8,544 nucleotides of DNA, taken from positions 1 to 8,544 of the forward strand of contig DAOVRJ010000098.1 of the NCBI GenBank assembly GCA_030628225.1, given 5' to 3'. The notes beneath the pieces are model-generated. The model was not told the origin of the DNA. It searched no databases and worked only from the letters and a program-made list of their open reading frames with translations. This document shows positions 1 to 8,544 of the stretch, in pieces. The translations under genes and the position numbers were made by a program. Origin of the DNA: Candidatus Zixiibacteriota bacterium. Its GTDB lineage: Bacteria > SM23-81. How positions within the stretch are numbered: the first letter of the stretch is position 1; the number at the start of each line of letters is the position of its first letter.

Positions 1-1155
1 CTCCACCTGGCCCACCCCCTCCGTGGGAGTCTCGGTGGGAATGCGACGAATCTCCTTACTGGTTATTTCCGGGTCCTGCACCAGCTCCATCATCAGCTCC
101 GCGGCGTACATCAGCTCGATGAGACGGGCCCAGTGTGTGGCCAGGGTGGCATGAACCGGCTTACCCCCCAAAGTTTTATAGAAGCGTTCGTATTCTGCTT
201 GGGCCAGAGGCGTGGTCATGCCATCGGCGGCGTTGAGACGGGAAAGGGGCGTGGCTTTGTAGACACCGCTGTCGGGACCGTCCACCAAACCCTTCCAACC
301 GATCTTCTTTAGGTAGGGGAACTTCATGTAGGTCCAGGGCTCCACATGCTCTTCCAGATGCTTTAAGTAATCGGCGGCTTTAAATTTGGCGAACTCCTGG
401 CCCTTTTGATCCACGACCCGGATATGGCCATCGTAGAAGTTGACCTGATTGTTCTCATCGACAGTGCCCATGGAATAGGTCCGGTGGGCATAGGCATCGC
501 TGAGGATCAGATCCACGTACTTCTTGTTGGCCAGGACGACGTCATCGAAGAGCTGCAGGCTGAACTTGCCGAACTCCACGGCCGTCTTGGCCACCTGCTC
601 GATCTGTTGCCGTTCCTCCTCGTTGATGCTCTTGCTGAACCCACCGGCAAGGGCACTGACCGGATGGATCGTCCGGCCGCCGAGGATTTTGATCACCCCG
701 TGCAGGGCATGACGGGCGTTGATCACCTTGAGGCCGGCCTCGGTGCCCACTTTTTGAATGAGGCCGAAGATATTCCGCTCGGCGGGGCTGGCCTCGGGCC
801 CCACCACGAAATCTGCGCCGGCCAGGATGTAAAAATGTGTGGCGTGGTCGGCGACGAAAAAGGCGCTGTACATCAGCTCGCGTAATTTCTTTCCAGCACT
901 GGGTATCTCCACGTGGTAGACGGCGTCACAGGCTTTGGCCGAGGCCATGTGGTGTGCCACAGGACAAACGCCGCAAATACGCGTGGTGATCCGGGGTAGC
1001 TCCTCCACGGGATGTCCCTCACAAAATTTCTCAAAACCCCGCAGCTCCGGCACCTGAAAGTACACATTGGCCACATCTCCGGCGTCGTCGAGAAAGATCT
1101 CGATCTTTCCGTGCCCCTCCAGCCGGGTGATGGGGTCGATAGTAATGCGTTTCAT
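1..1155 (-). CDS. mvhA: [NiFe] hydrogenase large subunit, MvhA-like (group 3c type), C-terminus cut by window edge
   Basis: This is the catalytic large subunit that splits or forms H2 at a Ni-Fe centre in the cytoplasm. I read 385 residues without a stop. The N-terminus has the large-subunit signature TRLEGHG (residues 10-16, including the conserved Glu13) and the L1 motif RICGVC, with Cys61 and Cys64 as the first two Ni ligands, followed by the typical PVAHHMAS. A GGRTIHPVSA segment is also characteristic. The second Ni-ligand pair (DPCxxCxxH type) and the processed C-terminal tail would lie beyond position 1, as the visible sequence stops after EGVGQVE. The start ATG overlaps the mvhG stop as ATGA, with AGGAGA 8 nt upstream, so the two are translationally coupled. 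Pairing with mvhG and hdrABC supports the Hdr-linked group 3c class over F420-reducing or NAD-reducing types. The group assignment is by context and motifs, not a tree. Confidence 0.95.
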   Translation of the reverse strand, partial: MKRITIDPITRLEGHGKIEIFLDDAGDVANVYFQVPELRGFEKFCEGHPVEELPRITTRICGVCPVAHHMASAKACDAVYHVEIPSAGKKLRELMYSAFFVADHATHFYILAGADFVVGPEASPAERNIFGLIQKVGTEAGLKVINARHALHGVIKILGGRTIHPVSALAGGFSKSINEEERQQIEQVAKTAVEFGKFSLQLFDDVVLANKKYVDLILSDAYAHRTYSMGTVDENNQVNFYDGHIRVVDQKGQEFAKFKAADYLKHLEEHVEPWTYMKFPYLKKIGWKGLVDGPDSGVYKATPLSRLNAADGMTTPLAQAEYERFYKTLGGKPVHATLATHWARLIELMYAAELMMELVQDPEITSKEIRRIPTETPTEGVGQVE

Positions 1156-2111
1156 TTGATGACTCTCCTGCGCAGAATTGAGTAGGGTAGCCCGAAGCGG
1201 TAGAAATACCCAATTGGATTTGGAATCTGGTCCAGTATCCGGTTTATCTCCTCTGGTTCCTCAGCATCGATGATGGAGCCCAGAGCGCTAACGATCTTGG
1301 CCCCCTGGTCGATGACCTTTGGGGGAGGGCCGTAACATCCACGACAGGGCATGTTGACCTGAATGCATTGGGCCCCGCAACCATCTCTGGTAGCGAACCC
1401 GGCACAGAAAATTCCCTGTTCCAGCAAACAGACGTCCGGGTCCGGGATCACCAGATGGGGACGCACAAAGGCCTTGATCTTCTTCTCATTTTTGGTCCGC
1501 GGACACTCATCGCAGACGGTCTTCTGGCCGGCACCCACCACAGAGCCCTTCTCGGGCAAATTGTTGCCTAAAATAGCCTCCAAAACCTCCCAGGTTCGTT
1601 CTCCTGTGGGGGGACAGCCAGGAACGAAGTAGTCCACATCCACCGTCTGGGCCAGGGTCTTAACGGTGTCGTAGAACTCGGGCAGCCGAAGCTCACCTTC
1701 GGGCACCTTTGTTTTGGTCTGGGGTCTGATTCCCTTGGGATTTTTGGTGCTCGGTGTGGTATCGTAGACCCGTTTGAAAATGCCCTCTCGATCGGTCACG
1801 TTGGCCAGGCCTGGGATGCCGCCCTCGTAGGCGCAGGAGCCATAGGCCACCAGCACTTTGCTCTTGCGCCGGAACAACTTGGCCATGTACTCGTTCTCCG
1901 ACGTGCGAATAGCACCGTTAAACAGGGTCAGATCAATACTCCCATCGGGCATGGCCTCCACATGGTGATATTTGAAATCCATGGCGCAAGGCCAGAAAAC
2001 TATCTCCGCCCCGGCGACAAAATCCAGAATCTTAGCCCCTATGTCCAGAATCGATATCTCACATCCCCCACAGCTGGCCGCCCAATAAAGAGCAACTTTT
2101 AGCTTTGCCAT
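1152..2111 (-). CDS. mvhG: [NiFe] hydrogenase small subunit, MvhG-like (F420-non-reducing type)
   Basis: This 319-residue small subunit carries electrons from the Ni-Fe site through three Fe-S clusters towards MvhD. The proximal cluster ligands fit Cys14 and Cys17 (SCGGCE), Cys93 (YGSCAYEGG) and Cys166 (VPGCPPT). The C-terminal half has eight further cysteines (200, 203, 228, 236, 245, 249, 256, 259) in the arrangement of the medial and distal 4Fe-4S clusters of Mvh/Frh-type small subunits. There is no twin-arginine signal peptide, so the hydrogenase is cytoplasmic, unlike periplasmic uptake enzymes. The start has AAGG 8 nt and AGGA 3 nt upstream. The gene follows the FrdA-like gene after 36 nt and ends in an ATGA overlap with mvhA. 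In common Mvh operons mvhD sits next to mvhG; here two Frd-like genes separate them. Confidence 0.95.
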   Translation of the reverse strand: MAKLKVALYWAASCGGCEISILDIGAKILDFVAGAEIVFWPCAMDFKYHHVEAMPDGSIDLTLFNGAIRTSENEYMAKLFRRKSKVLVAYGSCAYEGGIPGLANVTDREGIFKRVYDTTPSTKNPKGIRPQTKTKVPEGELRLPEFYDTVKTLAQTVDVDYFVPGCPPTGERTWEVLEAILGNNLPEKGSVVGAGQKTVCDECPRTKNEKKIKAFVRPHLVIPDPDVCLLEQGIFCAGFATRDGCGAQCIQVNMPCRGCYGPPPKVIDQGAKIVSALGSIIDAEEPEEINRILDQIPNPIGYFYRFGLPYSILRRRVIK

Positions 2112-2147
2112 ACTTCCTGCCTTTTTATATCGTTGAACTGTCGTTGT

Positions 2148-3824
2148 TTAACGGAGGGTCCCTTGATATTGGGTTGTTAGCTGCCTCTTTCTCACCTCGG
2201 GATTGCTGTAATCAGGCAAAAGCATGGGAGCGATACGATCTGTCTTCACGCCGGCCTTTTCCAGCTCCCGATTGTAACGGATCACGTGCTCCAGAGTCGG
2301 CTTTCCCCTGGGCGACTTGGCGCGGCTATACCTGGCAGCGTTCTCCCCGGCAATTCTTCCGAAGACGGTCACGTCCAGCAGAGAATTGCCCATCAGCCGA
2401 TTCTCGCCATGCACACCCCCGGAGACCTCGCCGGCCACAAACAGACCTGGAACGCTGGTCTGGCAACTTTCATCAATCTCCAGACCTCCATTCTGGTAAT
2501 GCAAGGTGGGATGCACCAGCATCGGTTCCTTGGAGATGTCGATCTCATAACGCCGGAACAGGATGCATTTGCCGGGAAATTCCCGTTTGACCGTCCCCGG
2601 GCCCTGAAGCAGCTCGATCATCGGCGAATCCAGCCAGACGCCAAATTTGCCCGTAGGGGTGGGCACGCCTTTGCCTCTGTCCGGGGAACATTCCCTGATG
2701 ACGGCCGCCGCCTCCACGTCCCTTGGTTCGCGCTCGTAGACGAATTGCTCGCCGTCGACGTTGACCAGATTGGCGCCAGCTCCCCGGAACTTCTCGGTGA
2801 TCAGCAGGCCCTCAGCCTGCTCTGGAAAGACGGCCCCGGTGGGATGATACTGCACACTATGCAGAAAACGCAGCTTCACCCCGGCCCGATAGCCCAAAAT
2901 AAGTCCATCTCCTGTAGCGCCATAGTGGTTGGTGGTCATATAGCCCTGCATATGCAATCTGCCGGAGCCACCCGTGGCCAGTACCGTGGCTTTAGCATGA
3001 ACCACGAAATACTCCTCGGTTTCCAGATTGTACAAAATCGCTCCAGCACACTGCCCCTTATTGGTAAGCACCAATTCCACTGCCGGAGAAAACTCAATGA
3101 TTTTTATGTTCTCCGGCCGATTTTTCACCTCATCACGCAGGGTGCGCATGATCTCGGCACCGGTGATCTCGCCGGCATAGTGCATCCGCTTTCGGGATGT
3201 GCCTCCGCCGTGCATGGTCTTCAGTGTGCCATCCGGAAATTTGGAGAACATGGTCCCCATCTTCTCCAGCCAGCCCATCACTTTGGGAGCTTCCAAAACC
3301 AGAGTCGAGACCAGCTTAGGATCGTTGGAAAAATGGCCACCGCCTATGACATCCAGATAGTGATAATATGGGGAATCCTTTCCCCTCTTGGTAGCCGCCT
3401 GAATGCCTCCCTCAGCCATCATGGTGTTGGCGTCTCCCATGCGCAATTTAGTGGCCAGAAGAACCCCAGCACCGCTCTCCTGGGCTAACAGCGCTGCGGA
3501 AGCACCTGCGCCCCCCCCGCCTATGACCAAAACATCGGTCTCGTACGCTACCCTGGAAAGATCGATCTTTTTGGGGTCAACGCGGCTGTGCGCCTCTAAA
3601 AGATCCACCACCTCGTGGGAGATGGAATACCCCTTGCTGGGACCAACTCGAATCTTCCGACGATTGCCTGATTTGAAATCAGGATGGTACTTTTTCAGTA
3701 TCTTCTGCCGATCATCCACGGGAATAGCGGAAAACTCCAAGCCCTTTTTTTTACGCTGCACGCGAGCGGGCCTCGTTTTCTCCACAACCTTCATCAGTTT
3801 CTTCAGCTCAGGCGTATAGGGCAT
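2148..3824 (-). CDS. FAD flavoprotein of the fumarate reductase/succinate dehydrogenase family (FrdA/SdhA-like), soluble
   Basis: This 558-residue FAD oxidoreductase probably interconverts a C4-dicarboxylate pair such as fumarate/succinate or reduces a related double bond. The Rossmann motif IGGGGAGA lies at 101-108. Family active-site residues are present: His327 in QYHPTG, Arg347 in TEKFRGAG, His442 in HYQNGG and Arg476 in HGENRLMGNS, matching the substrate-binding and proton-donating positions of FrdA. The covalent-FAD histidine (SHT before AxxGG) is replaced: the segment reads ANTMMAEGG, with Asn133 at that position, so FAD is probably non-covalent. About 95 residues precede the Rossmann fold, much more than in usual FrdA; they are Lys/Arg-rich (about 15-65). 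I chose the ATG at 3824 because GAGGAGG lies 6 nt upstream; an earlier in-frame ATG at 3857 overlaps the preceding gene and lacks such a site. No transmembrane segment is seen. Methanogen TfrA and L-aspartate oxidase are related alternatives; the true substrate is unproven. Confidence 0.85.
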   Translation of the reverse strand: MPYTPELKKLMKVVEKTRPARVQRKKKGLEFSAIPVDDRQKILKKYHPDFKSGNRRKIRVGPSKGYSISHEVVDLLEAHSRVDPKKIDLSRVAYETDVLVIGGGGAGASAALLAQESGAGVLLATKLRMGDANTMMAEGGIQAATKRGKDSPYYHYLDVIGGGHFSNDPKLVSTLVLEAPKVMGWLEKMGTMFSKFPDGTLKTMHGGGTSRKRMHYAGEITGAEIMRTLRDEVKNRPENIKIIEFSPAVELVLTNKGQCAGAILYNLETEEYFVVHAKATVLATGGSGRLHMQGYMTTNHYGATGDGLILGYRAGVKLRFLHSVQYHPTGAVFPEQAEGLLITEKFRGAGANLVNVDGEQFVYEREPRDVEAAAVIRECSPDRGKGVPTPTGKFGVWLDSPMIELLQGPGTVKREFPGKCILFRRYEIDISKEPMLVHPTLHYQNGGLEIDESCQTSVPGLFVAGEVSGGVHGENRLMGNSLLDVTVFGRIAGENAARYSRAKSPRGKPTLEHVIRYNRELEKAGVKTDRIAPMLLPDYSNPEVRKRQLTTQYQGTLR

Positions 3825-3830
3825 AACGAC

Positions 3831-3837
3831 CCTCCTC
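3831..3837 (-). promoter_or_regulatory. Shine-Dalgarno site of the FrdA-like gene
   Basis: On the minus strand this reads GAGGAGG and lies 6 nt before the ATG at 3824. It is the strongest ribosome binding site in the window. It decides the flavoprotein start in favour of residue MPYTPE rather than the ATG 33 nt upstream. Confidence 0.8.
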
Positions 3838-3853
3838 AACATTGCCTCTGAAC

Positions 3854-4633
3854 TCAAAGATAATCGTTGCTCTCTGGCGTCCAGTCCTCCTCGGCCATCT
3901 CTGGCTCGATCTCTCTCTCTTTATACAACCGCTTCAAATCTTTGATATCTGCACTTTTCAGAGCCCGCAGGGGCCTTTCGTATTTCCCCTTCTCGATCTC
4001 CCGTACTCTCTCGGCCAGGTGCTGTGCTCTGGGGGCGATATGCCTGGCGTAAAGGCGACGACAGAGAACGGCCATATTATACTGAACCAACTCCGCTGGG
4101 CATCGCGCCGCGCACAGACCGCACATAACGCAATCGAAGGAAAGCTCCGCCACCCCAGCCACATCTCCGCGAATGGCCCGGGCCATATACTCCATGACAT
4201 CGATATCCATGGGACAGCTCTTGGTGCAGACGTTACAACCCACACACTTGAATATCTCCGGATAGAGCTTGGACACATCGGCCCCGGTAGGAGATAATTT
4301 CTCGATATCGTACACAGCCTTATTGGCTGGGAAAAAGGGGATCTGGGCCAGATACATATTCGGCTTGACCACCGTCTGGCAGGCCAAACCCACTTCCACT
4401 CGATAGCTGTCCGGCAGGCGAAATACAGTACCACAAGCACCGCAGATACCACCCCGACATCCACAGCCGCGCACCAGCTGATAGCCCGCGTACTCCATGG
4501 CCTTTTGAATGGTCAGGCTGTCCGGAACCAGATGCCTTTGTCCCATGATGAAGATGGGAACGAGCTTCTGCTGCTGCTCCAGCTTTTTCCCGGTGGCGTC
4601 AGCTCGTTTCTTCTTTTTTCGTTGAGCCGCCAT
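3854..4633 (-). CDS. Iron-sulfur subunit, FrdB/SdhB-like N-terminal 2Fe-2S domain plus HdrC-like 2x[4Fe-4S] domain
   Basis: This 259-residue electron-transfer protein is the expected partner of the flavoprotein encoded next. After a Lys-rich N-terminus (residues 5-17) comes a plant-type 2Fe-2S domain with Cys59, Cys64, Cys67 and Cys85 (CRGGICGAC then LAC). Two full CxxCxxCxxxCP motifs follow: Cys130/133/136/140 and Cys168/171/174/178. Classical SdhB/FrdB instead have one such motif and a second, differently spaced one that binds a 3Fe-4S cluster next to the quinone site. Two regular motifs suggest two 4Fe-4S clusters and no quinone chemistry. The C-terminus is helical-looking and charged and lacks the HdrB-like CCG domain of methanogen thiol:fumarate reductase TfrB. 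The ATG at 4633 has GGGAGG 5 nt upstream and lies inside the end of mvhD (35-nt overlap). The gap to the flavoprotein gene is 29 nt. No membrane segment is seen. Confidence 0.85.
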   Translation of the reverse strand: MAAQRKKKKRADATGKKLEQQQKLVPIFIMGQRHLVPDSLTIQKAMEYAGYQLVRGCGCRGGICGACGTVFRLPDSYRVEVGLACQTVVKPNMYLAQIPFFPANKAVYDIEKLSPTGADVSKLYPEIFKCVGCNVCTKSCPMDIDVMEYMARAIRGDVAGVAELSFDCVMCGLCAARCPAELVQYNMAVLCRRLYARHIAPRAQHLAERVREIEKGKYERPLRALKSADIKDLKRLYKEREIEPEMAEEDWTPESNDYL

Positions 4634-5057
4634 CTTGGCCTCCCTTTCTCGACCCTAACTTAATCGGGCCGAGGGCTCTGATCTGCTCGGTAAACTCATC
4701 CATAAGCTGGGCAAACTTTCTCCCCTCTGCGGCGGAAACCCATTCCAGTCTCAGCCGCCCATTTTCTAATCCAAACTGCTTGAGCACCCTCTGGAAAAGC
4801 TCAATCCTCCGTAAAGTCTTATAATTTCCGTCCTGATAATGGCAGTCTCCAGGGTGACAGCCTCCCACGAAAACGCCGTCGGCTCCCCGGTCGAAGGCCC
4901 ACAGGATGTGCTCGGGATCCACCCGACTGGAGCACATAATCCGGATGTTCACCCCGTTGGGAGCATATTCCAGACGGGAGGTGCCAGCCAGATCTGCACC
5001 TGCATACGTGCACCACTTACAAAGAAAACAGACGATCTTTGGCTCAAACATCGTCAT
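4599..5057 (-). CDS. mvhD: MvhD-like hydrogenase delta subunit (2Fe-2S adaptor between hydrogenase and HdrA)
   Basis: This 152-residue protein of the MvhD/FrhD family carries a 2Fe-2S cluster and passes electrons from a hydrogenase (or another module) to HdrA. The family cysteines are present: CFLCKWC at Cys10/13/16, MCSSR at Cys42, and GGCHPGDC at Cys67/72. The start ATG at 5057 overlaps the hdrA stop as ATGA. A second ATG two codons later (5051) is 7 nt from the GGGAG ribosome binding site and may be the real start; the protein would then begin MFEPKIVC. The last 17 or so residues are Gly/Lys/Ser-rich, look non-conserved, and largely fall in the 35-nt overlap with the next gene. MvhD normally precedes mvhG; here the Frd-like pair comes between them, which raises the possibility that MvhD receives or delivers electrons for that pair too. 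Confidence 0.93.
   Translation of the reverse strand: MTMFEPKIVCFLCKWCTYAGADLAGTSRLEYAPNGVNIRIMCSSRVDPEHILWAFDRGADGVFVGGCHPGDCHYQDGNYKTLRRIELFQRVLKQFGLENGRLRLEWVSAAEGRKFAQLMDEFTEQIRALGPIKLGSRKGGQDGGSTKKEETS
4639..4644 (-). promoter_or_regulatory. Shine-Dalgarno site of the FrdB-like gene, inside mvhD
   Basis: The minus strand reads GGGAGG, 5 nt before the ATG at 4633. It lies within the mvhD coding sequence and supports that start despite the 35-nt overlap with mvhD. Confidence 0.65.
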
Positions 5058-7006
5058 TCTCCCAGGACAACTTTCACCATTTCGCGAATTTGATCGTCGG
5101 TAATATTCTGCTGCTGGGTGGCCCCGGAAGGACAGGCTGCTACACAGGCCCCACACCCCTCGCACAACAGCTCGTTGACCCGGACGATATTCTTTTCCTC
5201 ATCAAACTCCCGGGCATCATACGGACAGGCGGAGATACAAATCTTACAGCCGCTGCAAAGGTTCTCGTCGACCACGGCGACGATGGGATCGTGAAGGAGC
5301 ATCTCCTGGGAGAACATACCGATCACCTTTGAGGCTGCTCCGCCAGCCTGAGCAACAGTTTCGGGAATATCCCTGGGACCCTGGGCAGCCCCGGCCAGGA
5401 AAAACCCCGGGGTGAGACTCTCCACGGGCCGCAGCTTAGGATGGGCCTCGCTGAGGAACCCATTCTCGTCGCAAGCCAGCTTCAGATTGGCGAAGAGTTT
5501 CTTGCTGCCCTCAGCCGGCACTGCACCCGTGGCCAGCACTACCATGTCCGCGGTAATCTCCACCTTTTTCCCCGTCAGGGTGTCGACCCCCCAAACCATC
5601 AGTCCGTCGCCGTCTTGAAATATCTTGGAGACCTTACCCCTCAGGTAAACCACCCCTTCCTGTTCTGAAACCCGATGATAGAACTCCTCGTAACCCTTGC
5701 CTGCCGTGCGCACATCGATATAGAAAATATAAGGCTGGCCATCGGGAACGCGATGTTTATAAAGCAAGGCATGTTTGGCCGTGTACATACAACAGAATTT
5801 CGAGCAGTAGGGGAGGTGTTTCTCCGGATCCCGTGAGCCGGCACACTGTACGAAAACCACCTCTTTGGGAACCTTACCGTCAGAAGGTCTTCTTATGACA
5901 CCCTGAGTCGGACCTGATGCGGAAAGAAGACGTTCAAAATGAAGCCCATCAATTATATCAGGGTTTCTGCCATTGCCATATTCTTTAAGTTCCTCGCTTG
6001 GCAAAAGGTCATAACCGGTGGCGACGACGATGGCACCAACGGTCTCCTCTATTATCTCAGGCTTCATATCATAATCTACCGCATTTGGCTCACATACCTC
6101 TTTGCACTTGTTGCAGGCAAGCGGAAAAAGGCCCAGGCAAGCATCTGCATCAATTGTACAGATGGATGGAACAGCTTGTGGGAAAGGAATGTAGATGGCA
6201 TATCTTGAGCCCAATCCCCTTTCAAACTCATTGGGCACAACGACCGGACATACCTTGAAGCACTCGCCGCAGTTATTGCAAAGATCCTCCTTCACATATC
6301 TTGGCTTTTTCAAGATCTTTACATTGAAATTGCCCACATACCCACCTACGTTTACAACCTCGCTGTAAGCAAGCAGCTTTATTTTGGGATGGTGACTGAT
6401 CTCCACCATCTTTGGAGTCAAGATACATTGAGAGCAATCCAGAGTCGGAAATGTTTCAGAAAGCTGCGCCATATGCCCTCCGATGGAGGGCTCCTTTTCC
6501 ACGAGGATAACCTCGTATCCACTGTCGGCGATATCCAGAGCTGCCTGTATGCCAGCGATACCTCCGCCAATAACCAGCGCCCGGCGAGTCATAAATACAC
6601 TTATGGGCGATAACGAATCATTCAGTCTCTCCTTCTCGATGATGCTCTTGGTTATCTTGATGGCTTTTGCCGTGGCGATTTCCTTGTCCTGGTGAACCCA
6701 GCTACACTGTTCACGGATGTTGGCGATCTCACACTGGTAAGGATTCAGACCAACGGCCTCCGAGGCCCGGCGAAAGGTAAATTCGTGAAGGGTCGGGGAG
6801 CAGGCGGCCACGATGATCCCGTCGAGATGTTCCCTCTCGATGGCCTCCTGGATCATCTTCTGGCCAGGATCTGAACACATGTACTGGTAATCAGTCGCAT
6901 AGACCACACCGGGATAGTGGCCAATCTCCTCGACCACCTTTTTCACATCCACCGTCTTGGCGATGTTGATGCCACAACCACAGACGAAAACCCCGATTCT
7001 TTTCAT
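5054..7006 (-). CDS. hdrA: HdrA-like, FAD-containing electron-bifurcating subunit
   Basis: This 650-residue protein is the flavin hub of an Hdr complex. It splits electron pairs between a low-potential path to ferredoxin and a high-potential path through HdrC. Visible parts in order are an N-terminal domain of about 140 residues with Cys9/11/44/69/101; a Rossmann motif IGGGIAGI at 146-153; a DCSQC motif at 190-194; a CxxCxxCxxxCP ferredoxin motif at 243-254; a second cysteine set at 290, 298, 301 and 305; the family signature CAGSRD with YCSKFCC at 388-406; an ATG flavin-fold motif at 492-494; and a C-terminal 2x[4Fe-4S] ferredoxin domain (Cys584/587/590/594 and 615/618/621/625). Length and layout match full-length HdrA. 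AGGAGA lies 4 nt before the ATG. The stop overlaps the mvhD start as ATGA. The central 600 nt are poorer in G+C than both flanks by hand count. QmoA/B-type HdrA paralogues are the main alternative, but hdrB/hdrC and mvh context favours HdrA. Confidence 0.95.
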   Translation of the reverse strand: MKRIGVFVCGCGINIAKTVDVKKVVEEIGHYPGVVYATDYQYMCSDPGQKMIQEAIEREHLDGIIVAACSPTLHEFTFRRASEAVGLNPYQCEIANIREQCSWVHQDKEIATAKAIKITKSIIEKERLNDSLSPISVFMTRRALVIGGGIAGIQAALDIADSGYEVILVEKEPSIGGHMAQLSETFPTLDCSQCILTPKMVEISHHPKIKLLAYSEVVNVGGYVGNFNVKILKKPRYVKEDLCNNCGECFKVCPVVVPNEFERGLGSRYAIYIPFPQAVPSICTIDADACLGLFPLACNKCKEVCEPNAVDYDMKPEIIEETVGAIVVATGYDLLPSEELKEYGNGRNPDIIDGLHFERLLSASGPTQGVIRRPSDGKVPKEVVFVQCAGSRDPEKHLPYCSKFCCMYTAKHALLYKHRVPDGQPYIFYIDVRTAGKGYEEFYHRVSEQEGVVYLRGKVSKIFQDGDGLMVWGVDTLTGKKVEITADMVVLATGAVPAEGSKKLFANLKLACDENGFLSEAHPKLRPVESLTPGFFLAGAAQGPRDIPETVAQAGGAASKVIGMFSQEMLLHDPIVAVVDENLCSGCKICISACPYDAREFDEEKNIVRVNELLCEGCGACVAACPSGATQQQNITDDQIREMVKVVLGE

Positions 7007-7079
7007 CTGTTCTCCTAGGGGGAAAATTTATCTACGAAAACACGATAGCGTTTAAACCGTTCCGCCTAAGGAACCCGGG
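7007..7079 (-). other. 73-nt gap between hdrB and hdrA, the largest inside the cluster
   Basis: The gap holds the hdrA ribosome binding site (AGGAGA at 7011-7016), a perfect 8-bp palindrome GTTTAAAC at 7050-7057, and a short inverted repeat GTTCC/GGAAC at 7059-7074 with a 6-nt loop. The stem is only 5 bp and has no T-run after it, so it does not look like a terminator. A weak internal promoter resemblance on the minus strand (TTTAAA, 16 nt, TAGATA) is too degenerate to call. No small gene is supported. Confidence 0.4.
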
Positions 7080-8000
7080 TCAAACCAGATGTTTCTCCTT
7101 CAACAGCGGAACGGGATCGGCGAAATTCCTTTCAAACCCGAGGGATGCCGGATCCAGGCCCAGGGCCAAGGCCAGAAGTTGGCTGAAGAAAAATACGGGC
7201 ATGGGCCGAAAACCCGGGAAATGCCGGGCAAACTCGCTCTGTTTCTGTTCCAGATTGTAGAAACACATGGGGCAGCTGAGCATAATGGCATCGGCCCCGT
7301 TCTTTCTGGCCGATTCCAGGATGGTATGGCAAAGCCGGCGGGCGATCTGAGGGGACGAGAGAGACAGAAAAGATCCGCAACATTCAATGCGATACGGAAA
7401 CTCCACGACCTGCGCTCCCATACTGCCCAGAAAATCTTCCATGATTCTCGGATCTTCCGGGTCGTCCAAATCCATTTCTAAGGGGGGGCGAAGAAGATTG
7501 CAGCCGTAATAGGGAGCGATTTTTAAGTCTTCGAGCGGTTTGCTTACGGCAGCGGCAACGGCCTCAAAACCCAGTTCATCTCGAAGCATCTCCAGGTAAT
7601 GGAGGACCTTTACTCCACCATCGTACTCCTGCCCCTCTCCCACTCTCCGACCACTGGCCGCCCAACGGCGATCGTCATCGCTTAAAAAAAGGTTCAGCCG
7701 CGTTCGTTTGACCGAATCCTCCCTGATGATCAGGTTGGTCCGCTTGAGCACATTATAGCAAAAGTCGCAGATGGTCACCAACTTATCGTCCCCGGCTTCC
7801 TGCACTTCTTTGAGTATGCGAAAGGGGGCGACCAAATTCACGATCTTGGTCTCACTCACCGGATATACGCCTCCGCAACAGGTCCAGTTGGGCATCTCCT
7901 CGAGCTGCACATCCAGCTTTTCGGCGCAGGCCAAGGCCGTGGTTTCCAATTGGGAGGTTCTGTCCTTAAGAGTACAACCTGGATAATACGGCAGCTTCAT
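7080..8000 (-). CDS. hdrB: HdrB-like subunit with two CCG (cysteine-rich) domains
   Basis: This 306-residue protein carries the disulfide-reducing or analogous terminal site of Hdr complexes. Both cysteine-rich CCG motifs are complete. The first is Cys9 (YYPGC), Cys41-Cys42 (TCCGG) and Cys78/81 (ICDFC). The second is Cys167 (YYGC), Cys207-Cys208 (ECCGS) and Cys243/246 (SCPMC). Spacing agrees with the C-x31-39-CC-x35-36-CxxC family pattern, with the second CC-to-CxxC spacer one residue shorter. In methanogen HdrB such motifs bind the two non-cubane 4Fe-4S clusters that reduce CoM-S-S-CoB. Nothing here shows that these coenzymes are the substrate. Two adjacent ATGs exist (8003 and 8000); I chose 8000 because it is 6 nt from GGAG, whereas 8003 is only 3 nt away. 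The gene follows hdrC by 37 nt. No membrane segment is seen. Confidence 0.93.
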   Translation of the reverse strand: MKLPYYPGCTLKDRTSQLETTALACAEKLDVQLEEMPNWTCCGGVYPVSETKIVNLVAPFRILKEVQEAGDDKLVTICDFCYNVLKRTNLIIREDSVKRTRLNLFLSDDDRRWAASGRRVGEGQEYDGGVKVLHYLEMLRDELGFEAVAAAVSKPLEDLKIAPYYGCNLLRPPLEMDLDDPEDPRIMEDFLGSMGAQVVEFPYRIECCGSFLSLSSPQIARRLCHTILESARKNGADAIMLSCPMCFYNLEQKQSEFARHFPGFRPMPVFFFSQLLALALGLDPASLGFERNFADPVPLLKEKHLV

Positions 8001-8006
8001 CATTTT

Positions 8007-8010
8007 CTCC
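8007..8010 (-). promoter_or_regulatory. Ribosome binding site of hdrB
   Basis: The minus strand reads GGAG followed by AAAATGATG. Spacing of 6 nt to the second ATG, against 3 nt to the first, favours translation from 8000. Confidence 0.5.
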
Positions 8011-8037
8011 GGTCAATGAGTCGCCCTGATCGAGATC

Positions 8038-8445
8038 TCAGGCTCCCAGCTTACGAACCACTGTGACCAACGCCTGTTGGGGAGCACGGGCCAGCTCAGC
8101 GGACGGGATCTCCCCGGGGCCAAATCGATCGACCCCACCCGCCATGGCCATCTGGCGCAACGCGTCCATGATCTTGGAGATATCGATGCCCCGAGGGCAG
8201 CGGGCGAAACACTGGAAACAAGAGACGCACAGCCAAATGGTCTTTGAGGCTAGTAGTTCCTCCTCCATGCCCAACTGGACGTACCGAATCACCTGATTTG
8301 GCAGAAGATCCATCTCCTCGGCGATGGGACAGCCAGAGGAACAACAGCCACACTGGTAGCAAGCCCAGACACTCTGTCCGCTTAGCTCCTCGACCTGATG
8401 AAGAAATTCACCTTTCACTTTCCTCGCAGAAATCTCAGTGCGCAT
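8038..8445 (-). CDS. hdrC: HdrC-like 2x[4Fe-4S] subunit
   Basis: This 135-residue protein relays electrons from HdrA to HdrB. Two CxxCxxCxxxCP motifs are clear: Cys29/32/35/39 and Cys73/76/79/83, with the helical spacer and the RCPRGIDISKIMDALR segment typical of HdrC. The start is taken at the ATG at 8445, which leaves a normal 28 residues before the first cluster and has AAGG about 8 nt upstream. A GTG at 8496 would add 17 residues, and the frame stays open to an in-frame TAA at 8544, so a longer product cannot be ruled out. The C-terminus ends soon after the second cluster, making it short compared with methanogen HdrC (about 185 residues); I see no frameshift that would restore a tail. 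It is the first gene of the visible cluster and lies 37 nt before hdrB. Confidence 0.9.
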   Translation of the reverse strand: MRTEISARKVKGEFLHQVEELSGQSVWACYQCGCCSSGCPIAEEMDLLPNQVIRYVQLGMEEELLASKTIWLCVSCFQCFARCPRGIDISKIMDALRQMAMAGGVDRFGPGEIPSAELARAPQQALVTVVRKLGA

Positions 8446-8544
8446 GCTTAAAACCTTTCCTTGTATATAGAAATACTCTATCTCCCCCGGAAACACTGGT
8501 GAGACGGGAATCAGAGTCTTTGGTATTTCTGTGTACCATGCTTA
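8446..8544 (-). promoter_or_regulatory. Leader region before hdrC, possible operon promoter and operator
   Basis: No conserved protein is recognisable in these 99 nt. On the minus strand an AT-rich block TATTTCTATATACAAGG lies just before the hdrC ribosome binding site. It could be a -10 element or an archaeal TATA box, but no convincing -35 partner is visible. The octamer TAAGCATG occurs twice on the minus strand (8537-8544 and 8443-8450), the second covering the hdrC start. The window ends here, so an upstream gene reading into this region is also possible. Confidence 0.3.
8463..8536. repeat. Imperfect inverted repeat upstream of hdrC (arms 8463-8476 and 8523-8536)
   Basis: The left arm reads GTATATAGAAATAC on the plus strand. 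The right arm reads GTATTTCTGTGTAC, which matches the reverse complement of the left arm at 12 of 14 positions. The arms are 46 nt apart. Each arm is itself partly symmetric, with GTAT at one end and TAC at the other, so they could be two binding sites of one dimeric regulator flanking the promoter. No known regulator motif is recognised, and a chance match in AT-rich sequence is possible. Confidence 0.35.

Follow-up and report, generated by a model that had tools for sequence, protein, structure and literature searches.

Fumarase and a putative soluble, heterodisulfide reductase-based H2:fumarate/ferredoxin oxidoreductase encoded in one operon of a Zixibacteria genome

The 8,544 bp stretch of DNA analysed here (hereinafter, the window) is a complete contig (C80; GenBank DAOVRJ010000098.1) of a metagenome-assembled genome (MAG) of a Candidatus Zixiibacteriota bacterium (2.34 Mb in 306 contigs, 92% complete), and is occupied by eight minus-strand genes in the order hdrC-hdrB-hdrA-mvhD-frdB-frdA-mvhG-mvhA. 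The operon to which these genes belong probably encodes, besides fumarase, a soluble H2:fumarate/ferredoxin oxidoreductase that is based on the heterodisulfide reductase (Hdr). A preliminary description of the window had noted the eight packed, co-directional genes, with an frdB-like/frdA-like pair exactly between mvhD and mvhGA, and had proposed that they encode an electron-bifurcating complex of the fumarate type that is cytosolic and linked to H2; the gene order is borne out throughout, and the proposal is supported, as an inference, by the gene content, the catalytic residues and the genomic context described below. The eight-gene operon, by contrast, turned out to be incomplete, because a ninth gene had been overlooked: the window also contains the C-terminal end of the fumarase beta subunit (Table 1), so fumarase is part of the operon as well.

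The spacing between the eight genes ranges from -35 to +73 nt, the majority overlapping or lying less than 40 nt apart; hdrA and mvhD overlap by 4 nt (ATGA), as do mvhG and mvhA, the overlap of mvhD and frdB amounts to 35 nt, and each refined gene start either follows a purine-rich, ribosome-binding-like stretch or overlaps the preceding gene. Contig C190 of the same genome terminates with the fumarase alpha and beta genes, both of which score above the NCBIfam fumarase cut-offs; the beta gene breaks off where the window begins, and the last 15 bases of C190 are near-identical, with 2 mismatches, to the first bases of C80 read on the minus strand. At the other end, the remainder of mvhA is found at the end of contig C93. 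These two joins (C190-C80 and C80-C93) are drawn from sequence and synteny rather than assembled. In SM23_81 (LJUY01000002.1; loci L025/L018), a member of the same family, fumA-fumB lie directly upstream of hdrC, and the fumarase beta subunit ends in EGIRKYQRS*, which the window fragment KHGTQKYQRL* matches, so that the full operon evidently reads fumAB-hdrCBA-mvhD-frdBA-mvhGA. Because SM23_81, which was assembled independently, has the order fumAB-hdrCB-hdrA-mvhD-frdBA-mvhGA, with the HdrA gene split by an NADH module, the order in the window is no assembly accident.

The FrdA-like protein matches FAD_binding_2 (PF00890), and its AlphaFold model (mean pLDDT 80.6) is closest in fold to E. coli FrdA (1kf6, E 9.5e-31). 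The window protein keeps the counterparts of all of the E. coli residues H232, T244, E245, R287, H355 and R390 (literature numbering), which are those of dicarboxylate binding and of hydride and proton transfer. Residues H338, T354, E355, R358, R379, H453 and R487 (numbered with the TTG at 3857 as the start codon; with the ATG at 3824, the numbers are lower by 11) are conserved in 72-74 of the 74 close homologues, one of which has Ala in place of E245, and the active-site residues in all of the 28-29 scorable broad homologues. The position of the covalent FAD-binding histidine is occupied by asparagine in all 74 close and all 30 broad homologues, and the FAD therefore should be bound non-covalently. 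All FrdA homologues share an extension of about 90 residues ahead of the FAD domain, possibly a docking element, and in the FrdA tree the window protein groups with those of SM23_81, B38 and KSB1. Among curated models the best match is TfrA, with a score of 350 against a cut-off of 718. L-aspartate oxidase (NadB) was rejected as the identity of this gene, given the sub-cut-off score (277.9 against 452.75), the adjoining frdB (31/31 broadly sampled loci) and the fact that contig C287 encodes a separate NadB (509.7 bits); apart from these two, no member of the FrdA family was found in the 92%-complete MAG.

The name FrdB-like, given in the preliminary description, hides an architecture unlike that of SdhB. 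The 259 aa protein contains ligands for one [2Fe-2S] and two [4Fe-4S] clusters, the latter in two full CxxCxxCxxxCP sites, and C59/C64/C67/C85, C130-C140 and C168-C178 are invariant in 40 sequences. Foldseek searches with the whole model gave only weak whole-chain matches, and the halves were then assigned separately, with moderate Z scores of 7-8: residues 21-101 resemble the [2Fe-2S] domain at the N-terminus of NuoG and residues 114-201 resemble HdrC (8rvu_C, Z 8.4; 5odc_C, Z 7.0). A classical SdhB of the [3Fe-4S] type was rejected on the strength of the cluster motifs and of a dhsB score of 20.9 bits, under the cut-off of 88. Also set aside was the possibility that a solved Hdr complex contains a fumarate reductase: the PDB match of FrdB, 9sfi_T, at first promising, is confined to a 73-residue 4Fe-4S stretch, and the matched chain, from an Hdr-Mvh assembly, is of the ferredoxin type. 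No HdrB-like CCG domain (PF02754) is present in FrdB. Methanogen TfrB combines the equivalent parts in one fused protein; in SdhABE, the FrdAB head is served by SdhE, which is HdrB-like. The thiol:fumarate reductase TfrAB of Methanothermobacter is similar to the window pair in that TfrA is the nearest curated relative of FrdA and the FrdB-type subunit carries an HdrC-like Fe-S region; unlike TfrB, however, the window FrdB lacks the HdrB-like C-terminal domain, HdrB is encoded by a separate gene, and the scores lie under the curated TfrA/TfrB cut-offs.

All six subunits of the Hdr-Mvh part, HdrA, HdrB, HdrC, MvhD, MvhG and MvhA (the last completed on C93), are encoded together. HdrA aligns over its full length with methanogen HdrA (8rvu_a, E 1.4e-214); across homologous loci, the 10 CCG cysteines of HdrB are invariant (46/46 and 49-50 homologues) and the 8 cluster cysteines of HdrC are conserved (42/42 to 42/43); and MvhA has Ni-binding motifs at both ends, RICGVC in the window and DPCLACATH on C93. 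HdrB also matches the SdhE model (1e-38). The system thus has the same six subunits and the same cluster ligands as MvhADG-HdrABC of hydrogenotrophic methanogens (PDB 5odc, 9sw2), from which it differs in the frdBA pair between mvhD and mvhGA, in the fumarase of the operon, and in a bacterial host, where CoM-S-S-CoB is not expected. Neither here nor in SM23_81 was a gene for a membrane anchor subunit found in the operon; in contrast to the quinone-linked succinate:quinone and quinol:fumarate reductases (SdhABCD/FrdABCD), the window system lacks anchor genes in the operon, the covalent-FAD histidine in FrdA and the SdhB-type [3Fe-4S] site in FrdB. An NADH-oxidising Flx/Nuo module is likewise not present in the window, which has MvhGA instead, whereas SM23_81 has both NuoEFG-type and MvhGA proteins.

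Table 1. Genes and gene fragments of the window
Gene	Position	Strand	Features
Fumarase (class I) beta subunit, 3' end	8511..8543	-	last 10 codons and stop, KHGTQKYQRL*
hdrC	8038..8445	-	two CxxCxxCxxxC [4Fe-4S] sites; NCBIfam CoB_CoM_SS_C, E 2e-22
hdrB	7080..8003	-	two CCG domains for two non-cubane [4Fe-4S] clusters; PF02754 CCG, 2e-19
hdrA	5054..7006	-	FAD and Fe-S subunit, proposed bifurcation site; NCBIfam HdrA2, 4.6e-245
mvhD	4599..5057	-	[2Fe-2S] protein linking hydrogenase to HdrA; PF02662 FlpD, 1e-51
frdB-like	3854..4633	-	[2Fe-2S] domain and HdrC-like module with two [4Fe-4S] sites
frdA-like	2148..3824	-	fumarate reductase flavoprotein, conserved N-terminal extension; PF00890, 2e-73
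mvhG	1152..2111	-	[NiFe]-hydrogenase small subunit; match to MvhG 5odc_E, E 1e-66
mvhA	1..1155	-	[NiFe]-hydrogenase large subunit, incomplete at the contig end; NCBIfam VhuA, 3e-100

The HdrA genes of this family show some further peculiarities. In SM23_81 (L025:4609-9469 = L018:11120-16088, minus strand), the gene is interrupted inside the ferredoxin insert by the NADH-oxidising module, yielding an HdrA(1-255)-NuoE fusion, NuoF, and HdrA(235-650) preceded by a fused NuoG N-terminus; mvhGA and frdBA belong to the same operon, and the resulting complex would have both H2 and NADH inputs. Downstream of mvhA, contig C93 of the window genome (L126) carries a second, HdrA-like gene, and in SM23_81 (L018:2709-5741) this place is taken by a long double HdrA of 1011 aa, behind which lie mvhD, the gene of a hydrogenase protease and another hdrCB.

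Scanning genomes with the FrdB alignment detected at least 518 relatives in the database, of which the 80 loci most similar to the query were analysed; of 386 genomes sampled more broadly, 35 encode the family, and a broad set of 31 loci was taken from genomes other than G000, G001, G002, G004 and G038. The closest 80 loci come from Zixibacteria, KSB1, Latescibacterota, Eisenbacteria, Fermentibacteria, B38, Desulfobacterota/Syntrophales, Anaerolineae, Planctomycetota and a Methanomassiliicoccales archaeon. In 77 of them frdA follows frdB, and their fetched flanks contain hdr genes (61 loci), mvhD (48), an FrhB-like protein (38) and fumarase, 2-oxoglutarate:ferredoxin oxidoreductase (KOR) or SucCD (14); the corresponding counts in the broad set are 22 for hdr, 19 for mvhD, 11 for hydrogenase genes (one a weak partial match), 7 for fumarase and 6 for KOR. 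The uninterrupted order hdrCBA-mvhD-frdBA-mvhGA recurs in three further genomes (L161, L164, L168), apart from SM23_81 with its split HdrA, so that the arrangement clearly is not confined to the window genome, and in at least five genomes frdBA is inserted within the mvhD-mvhGA unit. Elsewhere the same genes are permuted and joined by those of the tricarboxylic acid (TCA) cycle, as in korC-hdrA-mvhD-mvhGA-hycI-hdrCB-frdBA-korAB-fumAB (L184, L185; L180 is similar), fumAB-sucCD-hdrCB-frdBA-hdrA-mvhD-mvhGA-hycI (L173), and fumAB-hdrCBA-KOR-frdBA-sucCD with ATP-citrate lyase upstream in Desulfofervidaceae (L094/L122). Loci L180, L184 and L185 represent one family with small genomes (1.3-1.7 Mb), in which the H2-Hdr-Frd-KOR-fumarase cluster fits within about 15 kb.

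The pair also has other neighbours. An FrhB/FdhB-like Fe-S protein of about 380 aa, which suggests yet another electron-input module, is encoded directly upstream of frdB in 33 of the closest 80 loci (e.g. L034:8750-9895), the arrangement in Desulfobacterota and Chloroflexi being mvhD-FrhB-frdB-frdA. The order hdrA-mvhD-FrhB-frdBA is found in the genome of the Methanomassiliicoccales archaeon bin396 (L104), apparently a cross-domain occurrence. In Desulfomonile-like bacteria (L057, L031, L047, L068, L090), frdBA lies beside genes for multihaem cytochromes, an NrfD-type membrane protein and a molybdopterin oxidoreductase, so that FrdBA is a portable fumarate reductase head, possibly one that is quinone-linked too.

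In the window genome, KOR and SucCD share contig C237, and fumarase and an RnfC-type protein are present, whereas citrate synthase, ATP-citrate lyase and carbon monoxide dehydrogenase/acetyl-CoA synthase were not found in this 92%-complete MAG; because of this, the plausible route to 2-oxoglutarate is the reductive one, via fumarate, succinate and succinyl-CoA. A complete reductive TCA cycle with ATP-citrate lyase was rejected for the host, since among eight genomes the enzyme was found only in G062 and G064 and not in that of the host, and a Wood-Ljungdahl context, with a methylenetetrahydrofolate-type Hdr complex, was set aside given that no CdhC/AcsB domain was detected in the window genome or in seven others. 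Between sucD and sucC, both family members encode a large membrane protein of about 750 aa (L114:6640-8925, L115:13201-15447).

From these features we infer a single complex that bifurcates electrons in the direction of fumarate reduction. MvhAG would oxidise H2 and MvhD would hand the electrons to the FAD of HdrA, which would split each pair, sending one electron to ferredoxin and the other via HdrC and HdrB to the Fe-S centres of FrdB and on to FrdA, where fumarate would be reduced to succinate; the net reaction would be 2 H2 + Fd(ox) + fumarate -> Fd(red) + succinate. FrdB and HdrB jointly would stand in for the fused TfrB of methanogens, with HdrB acting as a relay (or binding a tethered disulfide) rather than as a reductase of free heterodisulfide; direct electron transfer between HdrB and FrdB is supported by the existence of loci with only hdrCB-frdBA, ten of which are in the tree set. 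Succinyl-CoA synthetase then would make succinyl-CoA, and KOR would spend the same ferredoxin, one per fumarate, on the formation of 2-oxoglutarate, so that reduced ferredoxin and succinate would be produced in the 1:1 ratio in which SucCD and KOR would consume them. The overlapping genes of the operon, the fumarase at its head, the fold and catalytic residues of FrdA, the resemblance of HdrA and MvhG to the solved MvhADG-HdrABC type, the complete cluster ligands of HdrB and HdrC and the linkage to hdr and hydrogenase genes support this reading, as do the presence of KOR, SucCD and fumarase (and, in Desulfofervidaceae, ATP-citrate lyase) in the same clusters and the strongly exergonic forward reaction. 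The preliminary description had called this reaction downhill, and our calculations agree, giving a release of roughly 12 to 79 kJ per fumarate over 1e-5 to 1 bar H2: at a succinate/fumarate ratio of 1 and with ferredoxin at -450 to -500 mV, about -69 to -79 kJ at 1 bar and -12 to -22 kJ at 1e-5 bar, and, at 1e-5 bar with a 100-fold excess of succinate, -10 kJ (ferredoxin at -450 mV) or about 0 (-500 mV). In its most complete form, this proposal holds that one soluble complex couples H2 oxidation to the reduction of both ferredoxin and fumarate, with HdrB serving as a relay to FrdB instead of a disulfide reductase, that it delivers both reductants for the conversion of fumarate to 2-oxoglutarate in exact 1:1 ratio, and that, in many phyla, half of the reductive TCA cycle is thereby driven by H2 and without quinones; we put this forward tentatively, as a serious possibility.

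Several points weigh against the proposal. In none of the loci has HdrB lost either of its two catalytic non-cubane cluster sites, and disulfide reduction could be its real reaction. Conceivably, MvhADG-HdrABC bifurcates to ferredoxin and a soluble or small-protein disulfide (DsrC/TusA type), and FrdBA then oxidises the thiols, as TfrAB does in methanogens. Such a two-step route is compatible with the retention of all ten CCG cysteines and with TfrA being the best curated match of FrdA, and the Cloacimonadota cluster has been described in these terms (PMC8542988); nevertheless, with FrdB lacking the HdrB-like domain by which TfrB is defined and which oxidises thiols at its C-terminal end, the TfrA score far under its cut-off, and no thiol carrier gene in the cluster, we consider it decidedly unlikely. 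Furthermore, frdBA also occurs without any hdr genes, in NrfD/cytochrome or sucCD contexts, and FrdBA is, for this reason, a portable module. An ordinary Hdr-Mvh complex that is merely co-regulated with an independent soluble fumarate reductase, using ferredoxin or another carrier, would agree with the occurrence of frdBA alone or with other electron-input modules but not readily with the overlap of frdB and mvhD, the insertion of the pair inside the mvhD-mvhGA unit or the HdrC-like module of FrdB, and appears very improbable.

The direction of the reaction is subject to reservations of the same kind: the absences in the window genome rest on a 92%-complete MAG, and the citrate synthase of SM23_81 leaves room for an oxidative role across the group. 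Operating in reverse, the complex would confurcate electrons from succinate and reduced ferredoxin to H2, in an oxidative TCA cycle or in syntrophic propionate oxidation, with KOR supplying one reduced ferredoxin per succinate. The 1:1 match with the output of KOR holds in either direction, many carriers belong to syntrophic groups, such as Syntrophaceae and Syntrophobacteraceae, and it is the nearest relative of the window genome that has citrate synthase. By contrast, the enzyme was not found in the 92%-complete window genome itself; the clusters of Desulfofervidaceae contain ATP-citrate lyase, and the reductive cycle is the predicted route of carbon fixation in Desulfofervidus (HotSeep-1; PMC10553843); and, in line with the preliminary estimate that the reverse would be near balance only at very low H2, we compute that it is feasible only below about 0.01-3 Pa, depending on the ferredoxin potential and the succinate/fumarate ratio. 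Reversal thus seems unlikely, and for the host the reductive direction is a lean, not a proof. Finally, no biochemistry was found in the literature for an Hdr-linked bifurcating fumarate reductase, the H2-linked form included.

The general idea of such an enzyme is not new, NADH-linked versions and one H2-linked cluster being already in print. The proposed bifurcating fumarate reductases linked to Flx-Hdr resemble the window system in the genetic linkage of the frd pair to HdrABC and differ in having Flx/Nuo where the window has MvhGA. In the 'succinate operon' of Pseudoclostridium thermosuccinogenes, fumarase, an Hdr complex and FrdAB are encoded together and fumarate/ferredoxin coupling has been proposed, with NADH as the donor via Flx rather than H2 via a [NiFe]-hydrogenase (PMC7282089, citing the 2019 preprint of Koendjbiharie and van Kranenburg). 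The reductive TCA clusters of tubeworm symbionts also combine Hdr, fumarate reductase and 2-oxoglutarate:ferredoxin oxidoreductase (OGOR), in the form of flxABCD-hdrABC with korABCD and tfrAB interspersed (PMC6315080, PMC11636981); direct electron delivery has been proposed (PMC6315080), and most of the cluster, tfrAB excepted, is co-expressed (PMC11636981), but the donor is NADH, the host is a sulfur oxidiser and the fumarate reductase is annotated as TfrAB. The closest published parallel is the TFR-OGOR-fumarase-SCS-Mvh-Hdr cluster of Ca. Celaenobacter (Cloacimonadota), which unites H2, Hdr, fumarate reductase, fumarase and OGOR; it comes from a different phylum and was interpreted via CoM-S-S-CoB, with no subunit-level analysis (PMC8542988). 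The 8-methylmenaquinol:fumarate reductase SdhABE shares with the window FrdA/FrdB and an HdrB-like subunit, but has a membrane quinol donor and neither HdrA nor hydrogenase. We found no description in the literature searched of the exact order hdrCBA-mvhD-frdBA-mvhGA. The present analysis adds that frdBA is inserted within the Mvh-Hdr unit of an operon headed by fumarase, a reading at the level of subunits (an FrdB without an HdrB domain next to a separate but intact HdrB), and how widely the H2-linked form occurs, together with its association with KOR/SucCD.

As a rule, fumarate reduction depends on membrane quinones, and for many anaerobes it is an open question where the low-potential ferredoxin spent in the CO2-fixing step of the reductive TCA cycle comes from. 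If our proposal is correct, one soluble machine answers both, the steep drop from H2 to fumarate making the ferredoxin for the next carboxylation. With this operon, biochemistry could also test clearly whether flavins of the Hdr type are able to drive reactions besides disulfide reduction. The gene set is common, mostly in uncultured lineages, so that, should the proposal hold, the metabolic reconstructions of many metagenomes would change.

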